A stretch of 64,000 nucleotides of DNA from Nocardia sp. MH4 (GTDB lineage Bacteria; Actinomycetota; Actinomycetes; Mycobacteriales; Mycobacteriaceae), in assembly GCF_019266065.1 (NCBI RefSeq), contig NZ_LPNR01000112.1:124001-188000 (forward strand), given 5' to 3'. Each line of letters begins with the position of its first letter. The first letter of the stretch is position 1. The notes below the pieces were generated by a model. It searched no databases. It was not told the origin of the DNA and worked only from the letters and a program-made list of their open reading frames with translations. The position numbers were made by a program, and so were the translations under genes. Positions 7,807-63,604 of the stretch are shown here, piece after piece.

Positions 7807-8489
7807 CGGGTCTCCTCGGGCGCGAGCGCTTCGACGGAGTCGCCGCGGAATCGTGCTGAGGGGAGCAGTTGCCGTGTGAGCGCGTCGGTGGCCCACGACG
7901 CCCACTCGGCATCCGTCCAGCCGCGTTGGTGGACGAGTAGGCGGTAGGTCTCGGGGGCCAGTGTGGCAAGAGCGATGTCGGCGGCGCGGGCAGCGGTGAT
8001 GCCACCACGCAGCGTCGTCTTGCCGGCGAGGGCCTCGGCCAGACGAAGTTGGACCAGGTGACGTTGGGCGACGTTGGTTTCCCAGATCTCGGCGAGTTCC
8101 GGGTCGGTCGCCGCGGCCGACCGAATCACCTCGAGCAACGGGCTGACCCGAGCGAAAATCGTTGCCGCCGCGGCGACTTGAAGCCGGATCTGCTCGGCGG
8201 GCGCCGCTGCGAGGGCCTCGGTGAACCAGGGACGGTCCATGGTGGCGACCGGTTCGGTGTCGCCGGCGATCTCGACGTCGAGTAGTTCGGACAGGATCGC
8301 GCGCTTGGTGGCGAAGGTGAAGTACAGCGTCTGCACCGCCATGCCGGCCTGATCGGCGATGGCCTTCATCGTGGTCGGTGTGTAGCCGCGGGTGGTGAAC
8401 AGTTCCCGTGCCGCTGCCAGCATCTTTTCTCGGTTGGCCGTTGTCCTGGCTGCTCGCACACCGGTGTTCTTGCCTGTCATGCCTCGCAT
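7803..8489 (-). CDS. TetR-family repressor
   Basis: A protein of 228 residues (225 if the ATG at 8480 is used). Its N-terminal TetR helix-turn-helix runs from about 17 to 65: a REKMLAAARELFTTRGYTPT helix, then AIADQAGMAVQTLYFTFATK. The C-terminal ligand-binding domain resembles no specific subfamily I can name. It is translationally coupled to the downstream dehydrogenase-like gene and divergent from the MFS exporter; the intergenic region holds two copies of a palindrome that is almost certainly its operator. Confidence 0.88.
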   Translation of the reverse strand: MRGMTGKNTGVRAARTTANREKMLAAARELFTTRGYTPTTMKAIADQAGMAVQTLYFTFATKRAILSELLDVEIAGDTEPVATMDRPWFTEALAAAPAEQIRLQVAAAATIFARVSPLLEVIRSAAATDPELAEIWETNVAQRHLVQLRLAEALAGKTTLRGGITAARAADIALATLAPETYRLLVHQRGWTDAEWASWATDALTRQLLPSARFRGDSVEALAPEETR

Positions 8490-8498
8490 ACTACTTGA

Positions 8499-8542
8499 CT
8501 AGAGCGTAACTCTAGTGAAATCTGACTAGAGTTACGCTCTAG
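8499..8542. promoter_or_regulatory. Double TetR operator (two mirrored palindromes)
   Basis: CTAGAGCGTAACTCTAG at 8499-8515 and CTAGAGTTACGCTCTAG at 8526-8542 are exact reverse complements of one another. Each is itself a palindrome with 6-bp arms (CTAGAG/CTCTAG) around five bases. Centres are 27 bp apart. The pair lies between the TetR gene and the MFS gene it faces, ending 16 bp before the MFS start, and should block both promoters. Confidence 0.8.
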
Positions 8543-8558: not shown

Positions 8559-10001
8559 ATGCCGAGCAAGGTTGTACTCGCGCCGAAGGACCGGCTGGTC
8601 CTGCTGTTGATCACGATGGTCGAGCTGGTGGTCTTCCTGGACACGACCGTGTTGAATGTGGCGCTGCCCAGCATCGGCGCGGACCTCGGGCTCGACGAAG
8701 CGGGATTGGGCTGGGTGACCAACGCCTACCTCCTCGCCTTCGGCGGATTCATGCTGCTCGGCGGGCGCGCCGCCGATCTGCTCGGACCACGCCGGGTGTT
8801 CGCGGGCGGGCTCGCAGTCTTCACGGTGGCGTCCGCGCTGGCCGGATTCGCGCCGACCCCGGCGGTCCTCATCGCGGCCCGGGCATTGCAGGGCCTCGGC
8901 GCGGCCGTGGTCATCCCCGCGCAACTGGCACTGCTCACCCTGACGTTCACCGAACCCACGGCACGCAACCGCGCCTTCGGCGTGTGGAGTGCGATGGGGG
9001 CGGCGGGCGCGGCCATCGGCACCGCGGTCGGCGGACCACTCACCGATCTGTTCGGCTGGCCGTCGATCTTCCTGATCAACCTGCCCGTGGGTGTGCTGGC
9101 GCTGGCCTACGTCCGAGTGCTCCCGCCGGATCCGGCGCCATCCGTCCGGGCGCTGCGTCGGCTCGACGTGCCGGGTGCGATCACCGGCACGGTGGGGCTG
9201 TTGATCACCGGATATGCCATCGGCGCCCTCGGCGACGAGTCGACGCGCACCGCGGCGTCAGGTCTGCTGGTGACCGGGCTCGCGCTGCTCGCGGGCTTCG
9301 TACTCCTCGAGGCGCGGAGCGCGCATCCGCTGATGCCGTTGCGGCTGTTCGCCGTTCGCCAGGTGAGCGGGTCGGCCGTAGTCAACGCGCTGGTCGGTGC
9401 GGCGCACGTGCCCACCTTCGCCCTGCTGGCGCTGTACCTGCAGAACACTCAGCACTACAGTCCGACCGGCTCCGGCCTCGCGGTGCTACCGGTGGCCGTG
9501 GTGAACGTGGTGGTCTCCCGGACGCTGATCCCGTACGCGCTGGATCGGCTGGGTGCCTGGCGGGTGCTGGCTGCGGGCCTCGGGCTACAGGCGCTGGCCA
9601 TGGCCTGGTTCGCTCGTCTGCCCGAGCATGGCAACTACCTGATCGACGTGCTGCCCGGTGCGGTGCTGCTCGGCGTCGGCCTGCCCGCCGCGTTCGTCGG
9701 CGTCACCGTCCCCGCGGTCACCTCCGTTTCCCCAAGCGACGCCGGGATCGCGGCGGGCATCGTCAACACCGCACAGCGTGTCGGATCGGGGGTCGGAGTC
9801 ACGGCTGTTCTGCTGCTCGCCGATGTGGTGGCTCGGCAGTCCCCGGCAGTCGACGCCTACCGGACGGGCCTGAACGTCGCCTTCGCGGGCGCCGCCGCGC
9901 TGGCCGCGATCGGCGCCGTGCTGACCATCGCCTTGCTGCGCACGAGTCCGGCCACGGACGCGGAGCCGAAGTCCGAAACCCCCGCCGTAGTGAACGATTG
10001 A
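8559..10001 (+). CDS. MFS drug:H+ antiporter, DHA2 (EmrB/QacA) type
   Basis: About 480 residues with some 14 predicted transmembrane helices, as in DHA2 exporters. Motif D1 is seen as LDTTVLNVALPSIGADL (about 28-44), the motif A equivalent as GGRAADLLGPRRVF (about 69-82), and motif C-like glycine-rich sequence as GAAGAAIGTAVGGPLTDLFG (about 150-169). The ATG at 8559 has GAAAGGG 8 nt upstream; an in-frame GTG two codons earlier is less well placed. It probably exports a toxic compound recognised by the divergent TetR protein. The MpaB-like gene follows 13 nt downstream, likely in the same operon. Confidence 0.9.
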   Translation: MPSKVVLAPKDRLVLLLITMVELVVFLDTTVLNVALPSIGADLGLDEAGLGWVTNAYLLAFGGFMLLGGRAADLLGPRRVFAGGLAVFTVASALAGFAPTPAVLIAARALQGLGAAVVIPAQLALLTLTFTEPTARNRAFGVWSAMGAAGAAIGTAVGGPLTDLFGWPSIFLINLPVGVLALAYVRVLPPDPAPSVRALRRLDVPGAITGTVGLLITGYAIGALGDESTRTAASGLLVTGLALLAGFVLLEARSAHPLMPLRLFAVRQVSGSAVVNALVGAAHVPTFALLALYLQNTQHYSPTGSGLAVLPVAVVNVVVSRTLIPYALDRLGAWRVLAAGLGLQALAMAWFARLPEHGNYLIDVLPGAVLLGVGLPAAFVGVTVPAVTSVSPSDAGIAAGIVNTAQRVGSGVGVTAVLLLADVVARQSPAVDAYRTGLNVAFAGAAALAAIGAVLTIALLRTSPATDAEPKSETPAVVND

Positions 10002-20287: not shown

Positions 20288-21496
20288 TCAGAGGCCGAGT
20301 TTGGTGACGGCGTTGTCCTCGAGGGGGTTCGCGGTGCGGATGTAGCCGTGGACGGTACGGGGGTTGGACCAGCGGCCCTGGCGCATGATCTCGCGGTCAC
20401 TGGCGCCGCCGAGGGCGGCCTGGGTGGCGAATCCGGCGCGGAGGGAGTGACCGGAGAACAGGTCCGGGTCGAGGCCGGCGCGGGCGGCGTAGCGTTTGAC
20501 GAGTTCAGCGACGGCTCGGCCGGACAAGGGGGACGCGCCGATGGAGCCGTGGCGGTTGATGGTCGGAAACAGTGGTCGCTCGGTGTCGGTCGCCAGGGGC
20601 GTGCCGGTGAAGCCGTGGCAGCGGTGAATCGTGGTATCGGGGACGGGGTGATCGGCGGTCCAGGAACGGGCGCCGAGGTCGCCCGCTGCCGCGTGCACTT
20701 CCAGGAGGCGCACCCAGTCGGCGAAGGCGCAGATCGGGCAGGTGCGGGGATGCTTGCCGCGCGGCAGGGCGATGCGCTGTTCGGCGACGCCGGTCGGGTC
20801 GGTCTTCGTGGTCGGCAGATGGACGACGAGCAGTGGTTCGCCGGTGGAGTGGTCGGTGCGCACATGGACGTCGCTGACGCGCAGGCCCGCGAGTTCGCTG
20901 CGGCGCAGAGCGCCGGCGAAACCGACCAGCAGGGCGAGGGCGTCGCGGCGGCGGGCGGGTTCGGTGGGCCAGCCGGCGTCGGGGAGTTCGGCGAGCAGCT
21001 GGTCGAGGGTGTGCAGCAGGACGGGTCGTTTGCGAGTCGGTGGGGTGCGGCGGGTGCGCCGGATGCCGCGCAGGGTCAGCCGGACGACGTCGGAGCGGGT
21101 CGGCGAGGGTAATCCGTTGGCGGCGTGCACGGCGGCGATGGCGGCCGACTTGCGGTCCAGCGTCGCGGGGCTGAAGGCCCAGGAGCCGTTGTCGCGCCGG
21201 GCGTCGGCGGCCGCGGCCAGGTATACCGCGACGTCGAGGGGGTCGGCGGGCAGCGCCTGCCGGTGCTCGGCCGCGCACCAACCCGCCCAGGCGATCCAGT
21301 CGGTGCGGTAGGCGCGCAGGGTGTTCGCGGACTGGGAGGCTTCGAGGTAGCGGCGCAGGGCGGCGGCTTGGCCGTCGTCGAATCGTTCGCGGACCAGGCG
21401 CAGCGCGGCCGTGTCGACCAGGACGCTGCGCACGCCGCGCCGCAGTTCGGTCCGGACCTGTTCGGGAAGGACGACCGCTGCGTCGCTGCCGCTCAC
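20288..21496 (-). CDS. Tyrosine recombinase/integrase
   Basis: A 402-residue site-specific recombinase. An N-terminal SAM-like core-binding domain covers about 40-145 (RRYLEASQSANTLRAYRTDW). The catalytic domain shows Arg198/199 in GALRRSELAG, Lys231 in LPTTKTD, His350-x-x-Arg353 in GHSLRAGF, Trp376 at the position often held by His, and the nucleophile Tyr385 in TVHGYIR. All catalytic residues are present, so it may be active. No tRNA gene, excisionase, phage or conjugation gene lies beside it, and no flanking att repeat was recognised. It may be a remnant of, or a resident relative to, an integrative element. Confidence 0.88.
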   Translation of the reverse strand: MSGSDAAVVLPEQVRTELRRGVRSVLVDTAALRLVRERFDDGQAAALRRYLEASQSANTLRAYRTDWIAWAGWCAAEHRQALPADPLDVAVYLAAAADARRDNGSWAFSPATLDRKSAAIAAVHAANGLPSPTRSDVVRLTLRGIRRTRRTPPTRKRPVLLHTLDQLLAELPDAGWPTEPARRRDALALLVGFAGALRRSELAGLRVSDVHVRTDHSTGEPLLVVHLPTTKTDPTGVAEQRIALPRGKHPRTCPICAFADWVRLLEVHAAAGDLGARSWTADHPVPDTTIHRCHGFTGTPLATDTERPLFPTINRHGSIGASPLSGRAVAELVKRYAARAGLDPDLFSGHSLRAGFATQAALGGASDREIMRQGRWSNPRTVHGYIRTANPLEDNAVTKLGL

Positions 21497-30226: not shown

Positions 30227-31182
30227 CCCGCGATCTGACGCAGCGCGAGATCCTCACCGAACTCGAACCGACGGCCGAGGACTGCGTGCACCGCCACCTG
30301 GCGCTGGCCAAGGACTGGCATCCGCACGACTACGTCCCGTGGGACGAAGGGCGAAACTTCGCGGCGTTGGGTGGAACCGACTGGGAGAGTGATCAATCCA
30401 AGCTCGGCGAGGTCGCCAGGGCGGCGATGATCACCAACCTGCTCACCGAGGACAACCTGCCCTCCTATCACCGTGAGATCGCCGAGAACTTCTCCCGCGA
30501 CGGTGCGTGGGGCACGTGGGTGGGCCGATGGACCGCGGAGGAGATGCGGCACAGCATCGTGCTGCGCGACTATCTGGTGGTGACCCGCGGGGTCGATCCG
30601 GTGGCGCTCGAGAACGCCAGGATGGTCCACATGACCAATGGCTTCGCCTCCGGGGCCACGGCAGCCGACATCGACAGTGGCTCGGCGTTCCTGCACTCGG
30701 TGGCCTATGTCAGCTTTCAGGAACTGGCGACCCGCGTCACCCACCGCAATACCGGGCGGGTGTGTGACGACGAGATCGCCGACCGGATGCTGCAACGCAT
30801 CGCCGCCGACGAGAACCTGCACATGATCTTCTATCGCACCGTGTGCGCGGCGGCGCTGGATCTGGTGCCGGATCAGGCGATCGAGGCGATCGCCGACATC
30901 GTGGAGAACTTCCGCATGCCCGGCGCGGGAATGCCGAACTTCCGTCGTCACGGCGTGCTGATGGCCAAGCACGGTGTCTACGACCTGCGACAGCACCTCG
31001 AGGAGGTCCTGCAGCCGGTGCTGCGGCAGTGGAACATCTTCGGCCGCAACGATTTCGGTGCGCGCGGCGAGCAGGTGCGCGAGCGGCTGGCCGGATTCCT
31101 CGACGACCTGGCCCAGGTGCGGATTCCGCGTTTCGAAGAACAACGCGACCGCGCCCTGGCCAGGGAACGCGCCAGGGCGTAG
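30223..31182 (+). CDS. Acyl-[ACP] desaturase (DesA1/DesA2-like)
   Basis: A 319-residue soluble diiron fatty-acid desaturase. Diiron ligands are visible as [14 protein letters not shown] near 76-89, [16 protein letters not shown] (ExxRH, about 103-118), [13 protein letters not shown] (ExxxxH-like, about 165-177) and [13 protein letters not shown] (EN-H, about 193-205). It should introduce a double bond in acyl-ACP for membrane or mycolate precursors, needing O2 and ferredoxin. The TTG start at 30223 overlaps the previous stop. A desaturase induced with hibernation genes suggests membrane remodelling as O2 falls. Confidence 0.87.
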
Positions 31183-62321: not shown

Positions 62322-62356
62322 CTGACCCCCGATAATGTTCACTTATCGGCGGTCAG
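62322..62356 (+). repeat. Strong hairpin with 14-bp arms
   Basis: CTGACCCCCGATAA (62322-62335) and TTATCGGCGGTCAG (62343-62356) pair with one mismatch around a 7-nt loop TGTTCAC. It could be a terminator, a structured leader or a protein-binding palindrome; there is no T tract directly after it. Confidence 0.65.
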
Positions 62357-62377
62357 ATGTGTGGTAAGCGGATTTGA

Positions 62378-62390
62378 GCCCCGAAGGGGC
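62378..62390 (+). repeat. Short GC hairpin followed by T-rich sequence
   Basis: GCCCC-GAA-GGGGC forms a 5-bp stem with a 3-nt loop, followed 6 nt later by GGTTTTCGTTT. It could act as a weak terminator. Confidence 0.4.
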
Positions 62391-62402
62391 GACACGGTTT
62401 TC

Positions 62403-62434
62403 GTTTCGTCTAATTCGTAAAGAATTGACGAAAC
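62403..62434. promoter_or_regulatory. AT-rich inverted repeat upstream of the coiled-coil gene
   Basis: GTTTCGTCTAATTC (62403-62416) and GAATTGACGAAAC (62422-62434) are near-perfect complements (one base missing) around GTAAA. The site ends 6 bp before TACGAT (62441-62446), a -10 box 6 nt upstream of the GTG at 62453. It is well placed as an autoregulatory operator of the coiled-coil protein. Confidence 0.6.
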
Positions 62435-62452
62435 CAACGTTACGATTCTCCC

Positions 62453-63604
62453 GTGTCGAGCGTCTGCAACTATCCCGGCTGTGCCCGTCCCATCACCCGC
62501 GGCGGCGGTCCGGGTCGTCCCTCCGAATACTGCGACCACCCGGACCACACCCGATGGCGGGCATGGCGGGAAAGGCAACGCCTACAGCAGGAGTCGGAGG
62601 GTGGGGTCGAAAACGTCACTGTGACGACTCAAGGTCCGGTGACCGTGGCGAGGCTGCGTGCGGATGAGCTGCTCGGCCAGTTCCGGGGACTGGCCGAGCA
62701 ATTGGGCACGACGCTGAACGCCGCCGTCGCGGAATTGTCGACGCTGGGCGACCCCTCGGTGGCCGAGGCCCAGGTCCAGGCCGTGCAGGCCGATGCCGCC
62801 CGACGGATCGCGGAAGCCGACATGAAGGCGGTCGCCGCCGAACAAGCCCGCCGGGAGGCGGAGGAAGCCCGGGCCAACGCCGAATCGGCGGCCGAGGACG
62901 CCGCAGGCGCTGCCGAGGACGCCGAGCAGCTGATCGCTGCCGCGCACGCGGCGCGCGACGAGGCCTTGGCCGAGGTCGAGCGCCTGACGAAACAGGCCGC
63001 CGACGAGGTGTTCGCGGCGCGCAGCGCGGCCGAGGCCGAAGTCCGTGCCGCGCAACGAGACGCTGCCGAGGAGATCGAACGGATCCGGCAGGACGCCGCC
63101 GACCAGACCGCGCGCGCCGAACAGCGCGCCGACACCGAGATCGCCCAGGTCCGTCGCGAGGCCGAAGCCAGGGTCAACGCGGCACAGGCCGAACGTGACC
63201 TGGCGGTGCAGCGGGCCGCCGACGCCGACCGGGCGACCGAACGGGCCGAGGCCGCGGCCGCCGAACGAGTGGAAGCCGCCAGCGAAGCGCGCGAGGAATG
63301 GCGCAGGGCCCGAAGCGAACTGGAGGCGACCCGGACCGAACTCGATCGCACGCGCGCCGAACTCGCCGACCTGCGCCGCACCGCCATCACCGACGCCGAA
63401 ACCTGGCGCACCGAATCGGCCGCCGCGCTGGAACGGGTCAGGGCGGAGACCTCCGAACGGCTCGCCGCGCTCGACGATGCCCGCACCCAGACCCTCGCCC
63501 GTGCCGAACGCGCCGAACGCCAACTCGACGAACTGCTGGCCGCGACCCGATCACCTGCCGAGGCGAACGCGCTAACCGGCGCGGCGCGCGGCGCACTGGA
63601 CTAG
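62453..63604 (+). CDS. Zinc-finger-like/coiled-coil protein, KfrA-like in layout
   Basis: A 383-residue protein. Residues 1-40 contain a possible zinc site (CNYPGC, then YCDHPDH, ligands Cys5, Cys10, Cys27, His29/His32) with GRPS between, a pattern seen at the N-terminus of several actinobacterial DNA-associated proteins. Residues about 65-370 are an uninterrupted Ala/Glu/Arg-rich coiled coil. KfrA proteins of plasmids have a DNA-binding head and a long coiled coil and autoregulate through promoter palindromes, a layout matched here, but the head differs from the KfrA winged helix. The GTG start appears leaderless. A chromosome-organising or regulatory role is inferred. Confidence 0.7.
   Translation: MSSVCNYPGCARPITRGGGPGRPSEYCDHPDHTRWRAWRERQRLQQESEGGVENVTVTTQGPVTVARLRADELLGQFRGLAEQLGTTLNAAVAELSTLGDPSVAEAQVQAVQADAARRIAEADMKAVAAEQARREAEEARANAESAAEDAAGAAEDAEQLIAAAHAARDEALAEVERLTKQAADEVFAARSAAEAEVRAAQRDAAEEIERIRQDAADQTARAEQRADTEIAQVRREAEARVNAAQAERDLAVQRAADADRATERAEAAAAERVEAASEAREEWRRARSELEATRTELDRTRAELADLRRTAITDAETWRTESAAALERVRAETSERLAALDDARTQTLARAERAERQLDELLAATRSPAEANALTGAARGALD

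Follow-up and report, generated by a model that had tools for sequence, protein, structure and literature searches.

A probable crossover site of a Cre/IntA-type tyrosine recombinase, conserved near the terminus of Nocardia chromosomes

What are three inverted repeats doing in the short stretch ahead of a coiled-coil gene on a Nocardia chromosome? An earlier note on this DNA had taken them for structured sites of a DNA-organising or segregation-like system, in which a KfrA-like coiled-coil protein would act with a small transmembrane (TM) protein encoded next to it. In the window (the whole stretch of 64,000 nt analysed here) all three repeats are indeed present. The first, at 62322-62356, has 14-bp arms, 13 of 14 positions of which pair, around a centre of 7 nt. 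The second, at 62378-62390, reads GCCCC-GAA-GGGGC, and the third, at 62403-62434, is TTTCGTC(t)AATTC / GAATTGACGAAA, whose full-length pairing needs a one-base bulge. As bare inverted repeats in this window, the three are unremarkable. A search for 14-bp arms with at most one mismatch and a loop of 3-12 returned 25 overlapping matches at nine distinct places, as compared with 1.1 +/- 1.4 after dinucleotide shuffling (40 shuffles); the first repeat is among the 25, and the other two fall outside them. Reading the repeats as an Rfam RNA was rejected, since there is no gathering-level match at their positions. The only such match in the window is ASdes (RF01781), which lies elsewhere, at full length, at 30541-30608 on the minus strand (78.8 bits, gathering score 40). 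Separately, a very long inverted repeat, AGAGCGTAACTCTAG...CTAGAGTTACGCTCT, occupies window positions 8501-8540 and is a candidate operator or terminator.

Judging from aligned loci, it is conservation, not pairing, that sets 62322-62356 apart from the other two repeats. The features with which the argument is concerned are as follows.

62322-62356, no strand assigned: proposed crossover (lox/att-type) site, a 35-bp dyad CTGACCnCCGATAA-nGTTCAC-TTATCGGnGGTCAG, proposed from its conservation and its attA arms.
62400-62452, plus strand: proposed accessory/operator region, AT-rich, with TTTCGT/ACGAAAC and a leaderless promoter (TACGAT box at 62441-62446).
62453-63604, plus strand: 383-aa protein of KfrA-like build, its N-terminal Cys/His head followed by a long coiled coil (from 46 loci, alignment and predicted helix).
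20288-21496, minus strand: 402-aa Cre-like/IntA-like tyrosine recombinase (from PF00589, IntA and Cre matches).

The full dyad occurs once in this Nocardia genome (7.18 Mb, up to three mismatches), and its core was found at the same tolerance in 144 of 148 Nocardia genomes; a control with the reversed core pattern gave 12 places in the same 148 genomes. Information per position averages 1.76 bits within the 35-bp site, versus 0.18 and 0.19 bits in the 30-bp flanks, across a sample of 79 distinct windows that are nearly all main Nocardia loci and also include a second copy (L068), a locus from another genus (L053/L122) and a doubtful match (L123). Each arm has one free position, and 77 of the 79 windows retain the asymmetric centre GTTCAC. 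The four genomes without a match are G154, G222, G225 and G231. L123 is the sole match in G311 (88% complete, 720 contigs), where it has two mismatches and lacks the outer arms, and it is probably not a true site. Other Nocardia genomes can carry further copies, mostly variant, among the matches listed. Of 201 genomes drawn across the family, 15 match the site, 14 of them in the window's own genus.

The neighbouring elements fare differently. Relatives of the coiled-coil gene were collected at 46 loci, 45 titled Nocardia (two being MAGs) and one Streptoalloteichus, and in 42 of these the site lies within 600 bp upstream of the gene (up to three mismatches to CCGATAAnGTTCACTTATCGG). It is 2.4 and 4.9 kb upstream at L038 and L041, about 5.8 kb away and beside the recombinase in the genome of L046, and one spacer base short at L047 (genome G225). 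By eye, the aligned loci of other species do not keep the middle hairpin, and of the third repeat they keep only the outer TTTCGT / ACGAAAC. The small TM protein was found at 8 of the 46 orthologous loci (E 1e-3), so its proposed part as a partner was rejected.

The sequence of the dyad suggests what it may be. Its arms, CCGATAA-N7-TTATCGG, are the arms, and its spacer the spacer length, of attA from Rhizobium etli. As described in PMC4928290, attA is an experimentally defined site, printed as TCCGATAAGCATTACTTATCGGA; the tyrosine recombinase IntA recombines it with attD, and the two sites are 23-bp palindromes whose sequences differ at a single base. The stretch of p42a examined differs from the printed attA by one spacer base. 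When a related site was searched against plasmids by BLAST, 39 records matched, 25 of them from Rhizobium, although E-values up to 10 were accepted and the weakest of the 39 may be chance. Plasmid p42a of R. etli is among them, and its site adjoins a site-specific integrase gene. Of the seven site-bearing plasmids examined, all four from alphaproteobacteria have a site-specific integrase gene at a distance of 0.1-1 kb. The three actinobacterial ones, one each from Nocardia, Streptomonospora and Frondihabitans, show no such recombinase in their annotation within 6 kb.

Which enzyme, then, might serve the site on the Nocardia chromosome? The genome has 13 matches to PF00589, 12 of them over the cut-off, and among these 13 only the protein encoded at 20288-21496 is significantly similar to four IntA-type proteins (E 1e-9 to 1e-13). 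Its best sequence match in the PDB is Cre (2e-15), with XerD at 2.8e-5. Foldseek ranks Cre or engineered Cre variants at positions 1-30 for its fold model, which is of low confidence (mean pLDDT 61.6) and shows about 20% identity to Cre in the fold alignment. General Xer models of NCBIfam score well under their cut-offs, at 5e-12 and 3.9e-10. Judged by the PDB search and the fold model, this recombinase is closer to Cre than to XerC/D. In 29 aligned orthologues R198, K231, H350, R353, W376 and Y385 are invariant, which we take to be the catalytic R-K-H-R-W-Y set. The same genome also encodes XerD (over the model cut-off) and an XerC-like protein (320.3 vs 335.2 bits, just under it).

The recombinase has plasmid relatives in 112 records at 1e-20, 79 of them from Rhodococcus. 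In the 500 bp upstream of the six examined (L269-L274) there is no strong palindrome, and one of the six has GATAA-N7-TTATC in that interval. The next downstream gene at these six loci is annotated as a recombinase in two and as hypothetical in four, perhaps reflecting a tandem recombinase pair. Around more distant relatives the palindromes have other sequences. For instance, palindromes with the core GTGTT(T/C)-ACG(G/C)CGT surround the relative at L260 (G474:C7), at about 5248, 6501 and 8342, and are perhaps its own sites.

Site and recombinase are retained and lost together. The gene is present in 145 of the 148 Nocardia genomes, one of the 145 carrying an interrupted copy; it is absent from G154, G222 and G231, and interrupted by TGA in G225. 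These four are exactly the genomes without a site match. By simple counting, the chance of such agreement is about 1 in 19 million, though the genomes share ancestry; a dif variant is common to G154 and G231, which may represent one loss event. In G225 the interrupted gene occurs together with the shortened spacer of L047. A possible exception is G311, where the recombinase is present and the site match doubtful. In all 19 Nocardia loci examined that contain both, the recombinase lies upstream of the site and is divergent from it, and across 23 genomes the distance between the two is 0.1-115 kb, with about 110-150 bp in part of the genus and 40.8 kb in the window's genome.

From these comparisons, 62322-62356 is probably (we would put it at about 0.8) the crossover site of a chromosomal Cre/IntA-type tyrosine recombinase encoded at 20288-21496. 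The pairing of site and recombinase appears well supported by the genomes compared. We infer the function of the pair, as well as binding, catalysis, the coiled-coil protein's role and the reaction that counts in vivo. The proposal of the earlier note that the structured site serves the coiled-coil protein is not supported: the key element of the locus, 62322-62356, looks like a tyrosine-recombinase crossover site whose partner gene is 41 kb away.

The same association recurs outside Nocardia. Streptoalloteichus (L043) has CTGACCCGCGATAAGGTTCACTTATCACGGGTTAG 181 bp before the coiled-coil gene and a recombinase orthologue of 74% identity, and G014, a 66%-complete genome from another genus of the window's family, has the site, a 71% orthologue and the coiled-coil gene. 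Of 394 genomes drawn across the class, four Nocardia and seven others have the exact 17-bp core, and all seven belong to family f19, which presumably includes Streptomonospora (Nocardiopsidaceae). All seven have a recombinase orthologue (59-67%). Across the 40 genomes of f19 the orthologue occurs in 20, and none of the 20 genomes without it has the site. This co-presence is weak as independent evidence, because the split follows genera (eight with, ten without). The exact core is missing from 13 of the 20 orthologue-bearing genomes. Two of these were searched within 200 kb on either side, one revealing a variant site and one none; the variant, with the spacer GGCCCGC and a comparable array, lies 154 kb away from the recombinase gene. 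The seven f19 sites, presumed to be main copies, are flanked by a TTACGTT/AACGAAAC array that is clear in five (matched in at most 3 of 500 simulations) and weak at L153 (22/500) and L149 (58/500). No coiled-coil gene was found within 1.5 kb on either side of the site in these seven genomes. A shared neighbour gene was rejected as an explanation of the f19 sites, none being common to the eight other-family sites when open reading frames were compared at 1e-8. Therefore, the site itself is what would seem to be kept.

How, then, does the coiled-coil protein come into it? Its gene starts with GTG, and in 41 of the 46 loci a box ACGAAACnAACG(C/T)TACGATT was found, its end 5-6 bp (12 bp in one case) ahead of the start used, in agreement with the leaderless promoter that had been proposed. 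C5, C10, C27 and H32 are invariant in 30 aligned proteins, and AlphaFold predicts a single long helix over residues 101-364. The idea of a chromosomal locus that joins a conserved structured site to a KfrA-like gene is upheld. The protein has no Pfam or NCBIfam family above cut-off and no match to a KfrA model, and a Foldseek search with its predicted structure gave no match below E 7.6. Its N-terminal part (about residues 4-102) has relatives on eight plasmid records. Near two of the four plasmid relatives examined, in Arthrobacter p2MP and U41 unnamed3, lies an ATPase gene that is ParA-like by eye. At these two loci (L143, L144) the ParA-like gene is accompanied by a small second gene, possibly forming a partition locus.

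Hexamers of the type TT[AT]CGT/ACG[AT]AA are enriched in 62400-62452 and also occur ahead of the coiled-coil gene's relatives on plasmids, in all four cases tested (a count reached in at most 5 of 500 simulations). Because the plasmid relatives share these hexamers, 62400-62452 is more likely to be the coiled-coil protein's own putative binding region. Further copies of the third repeat, predicted by the earlier note, did not appear: the genus consensus has no match in the genome at up to three mismatches, a weak test because the window's own copy also exceeds three mismatches to that consensus.

The distance from the site to the promoter box is 56 bp at one locus, 66 at two, 67 at 24, 77 at seven, 78 at 23 and 89 at one. 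All of these gaps are 0 or 1 modulo 11 (58 distinct loci, with shared ancestry among them). As read from the aligned loci, several length changes between site and box have thus kept the helix face, and the 11-bp steps suggest contact between whatever binds the site and whatever binds at the AT-rich region or the promoter. Such phasing ahead of a leaderless promoter, and the position between divergent genes seen in some of the genus, are also what one would look for if the dyad were a transcription-factor operator that controls the coiled-coil gene, and partly the divergent recombinase gene, and never recombines. Yet its arms equal those of a proven recombinase site, and all nine second copies tested lack the array (see below). 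A dyad of 35 bp that hardly varies and whose conserved centre is asymmetric is unlike common operators. We consider an operator of this sort very improbable.

The reading with which the locus was first approached, that the repeats are an operator or centromere of the KfrA-like protein within a DNA-organising or segregation system, draws on the same fixed helical phase between the site and the gene's promoter. It also agrees with the ParA-like gene near two of four plasmid relatives, and with the description of KfrA-type proteins as autoregulators linked to plasmid maintenance (PMC7821693, PMC7783346). Nevertheless, the palindrome tracks the recombinase and not the coiled-coil gene, which is 2.4-5.8 kb off at L038, L041 and L046 and has no copy within 1.5 kb of the site in the seven f19 genomes. 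By these arrangements, the coiled-coil gene is separable from the site/recombinase pair. For the three repeats as a whole this explanation is unlikely; it may hold for the AT-rich region 62400-62452 alone. As to the segregation-like system, a segregation-type role is still a fair guess, and an operator of the coiled-coil protein at the first repeat and a TM partner are not.

If 62322-62356 is a crossover site, its position bears on what it would be for. An actinobacterial dif has been proposed for Frankia and served as the seed for Nocardia farcinica (PMC3025954). This canonical dif is found, separate from the site, in 144 of the 148 Nocardia genomes, and in the window's own genome it lies at C111:267428-267449. 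That the site is itself dif was rejected, canonical dif being located separately. The site also departs from the XerCD dif form (XerC half, 6-bp centre, XerD half TTATGTCAA), as both of its halves are of the CCGATAA type and its centre is 7 bp. The order recombinase-site-dif holds in 23 of 23 genomes (the window's own and 22 in at most ten contigs, a selection of such genomes), and shared ancestry of gene order contributes to this figure. The strand of dif relative to the site varies among Nocardia genomes while the order stays constant. From site to dif the distance is 11-481 kb (median 139 kb), or 0.2-5.4% of genome length, in the same 23 genomes.

The site is thus single-copy and terminus-linked, as a site for dimer resolution should be, and these two properties, with genus-wide retention, favour resolution between sister copies. 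Against it are the presence of XerCD-dif and the distance of up to 481 kb from dif; a site activated by FtsK would be expected nearer to dif than that. Dimer resolution is no empty niche, because dif, XerD and an XerC-like protein are all present. Moreover, the conservation of the spacer (GTTCAC in 77/79) exceeds what recombination between sister copies needs.

A different use for the same pair would be as a docking or service site, kept so that plasmids and integrative elements can resolve, cointegrate or integrate there, as IntA does. The occurrence of the site on Nocardia, Streptomonospora, Frondihabitans and many rhizobial plasmids fits such a use, and there is a precedent for cointegration, in which IntA joins p42a and the symbiotic plasmid of R. 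etli (PMC4928290). Second copies within Nocardia are also relevant. Sixteen second matches (L105-L120), among the matches listed, were examined, and 11 of the 16 have intact arms. Three (L105, L108 and L112) carry a similar AT-rich array, L108 next to what appears by eye to be a decayed coiled-coil paralogue. The remaining 13 have no array, and seven of these (L106, L110, L113, L115, L116, L118 and L120, in stretches of 4-10 kb with selected open reading frames) have nearby a gene that passes the Pfam cut-off as a serine recombinase, a tyrosine recombinase or TnsA-like. The figure of seven in 13 is a raw count, uncorrected for the background frequency of such genes along the chromosome, and five of the 13 matches (L115-L118 and L120) have degenerate arms and may be chance. 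L107 has a Rep_1 match nearby, below cut-off. Pfam confirms only in part the element-type genes (a relaxase, an integrase) named by eye near second copies. Enrichment of the TT[AT]CGT/ACG[AT]AA hexamers is absent beside nine of nine second copies tested.

Spacers, however, argue against free exchange between these copies and the chromosome. Compared with the main copy of the same genome, nine of 13 intact-arm second copies (11 from Nocardia, two from f19) differ by 1-3 bases in the spacer and four are identical, in a search of up to three mismatches that leaves strongly different spacers outside its reach; such differences should disfavour recombination with the chromosome. No element between two copies was seen at the main site in an unsystematic look, and selection by elements only would not readily explain why site and gene persist in about 144 of 148 chromosomes. 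We regard docking as possible, at less than even odds.

Viral sequences offer little to attach the site to. Searches with the protein head, a related site and the recombinase matched no phage record at the thresholds used. In IMG/VR, 16 contigs match the 17-bp core, none with the CC/GG-flanked form, and only one of them, L138, encodes a recombinase relative. This contig, listed as viral, has a palindrome CCCCGGATAA-CGTTCAC-TTATCCGGGG at 8410-8440, about 0.5 kb from the relative, which is partial (8958-9569) and 31% identical. Three IMG/VR contigs match a longer arms pattern, and in these stretches neither the recombinase nor IntA nor the coiled-coil protein is encoded at 1e-3. A phage feature was rejected on these grounds.

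Returning to the site/recombinase pair as a recombination system of the chromosome, we can sketch how it would work. One recombinase subunit would sit on each of the two arms (CTGACCnCCGATAA in either direction). Synapsis of two such sites would follow, with strand cleavage and exchange over the 7-bp spacer nGTTCAC, in the manner of Cre at loxP. Because the chromosome normally has one copy, the natural partner would be a sister copy or one on a plasmid or other element. With the sister-chromosome copy as partner, chromosome dimers would be resolved near the terminus; with a plasmid or element copy, multimers would be resolved, or cointegrates formed when spacers match. The TTTCGT/ACGAAAC region, kept on the same DNA face by the 11-bp steps, would be bound by the KfrA-like protein, which from there might act on the site or be controlled itself.

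The retention of site and recombinase near the terminus in nearly all Nocardia suggests a second way to sort merged chromosomes or plasmids. Extending this, we can speculate, and with some doubt, that Nocardia and a second actinobacterial lineage (Streptomonospora and kin, independently or by descent) might run an XerCD-independent segregation recombination. A plasmid Cre/lox module would have been domesticated beside the terminus, a KfrA-like protein on the phased accessory region would set the timing of recombination between sister sites, and plasmids and elements with the same arms, often with other spacers, would borrow the enzyme for their own resolution and stay out of the chromosome. 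If this is true, certain bacteria would have two recombination systems at work as their cell cycle ends, and why they do so is a directly testable question. The pair also supplies a new recombinase together with its probable natural site, and possibly a natural example of plasmids that share the arms of a host recombinase and change the spacer.

Several known systems resemble parts of this one. KfrA-type proteins share with the coiled-coil protein a small N-terminal head, a long coiled coil and repeats at their own promoter, and, as with KfrA plasmids, some plasmid relatives of the coiled-coil protein are near a ParA-like gene. Unlike them, the coiled-coil protein has a Cys/His motif in its head, is chromosomal and matches no KfrA model. 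IntA and attA-attD (p42a, p42d) have the same CCGATAA...TTATCGG arms with 7 bp between, and on p42a the gene of a tyrosine recombinase beside the site. They are plasmid-borne in R. etli and serve plasmid cointegration, whereas the window's system is chromosomal, near the terminus and genus-wide; IntA and the window's recombinase are only about 24-29% identical over BLAST segments, and the spacers differ (GCATTAC in R. etli, nGTTCAC here).

Cre/loxP of phage P1 consists of a single recombinase and palindromic arms around an asymmetric 8-bp spacer. The window's system is like it in its single recombinase, its palindromic arms and asymmetric spacer and its Cre-like C terminus with Trp and Tyr, and unlike it in having a spacer of 7 rather than 8 bp, other arms and a place on a bacterial chromosome. 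XerCD/dif and XerL/dif, like the site described here, involve one terminus-linked chromosomal site with copies on mobile DNA. XerL/dif of Legionellales is a single-recombinase Xer system revealed through the site copy of a mobile element, in an order in which, as far as that account goes, no other dif/Xer system had been identified (PMC9765430). XerCD/dif differs in that both arms of the window's site are CCGATAA, the XerC-side sequence of actinobacterial dif, and in that the window's enzyme is Cre-like and distinct from the XerC- and XerD-like proteins of its genome, with dif a separate site 11-481 kb away. Among the open PubMed Central papers that the searches listed, no title or opening of an abstract describes a site or recombinase of the Cre/IntA type that Nocardia chromosomes conserve. 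In kind, both parts are familiar from the IntA/att and Cre/lox systems of plasmids and phages; what is new, as far as searched, is a chromosomal, genus-wide, terminus-linked version that exists beside XerCD-dif.
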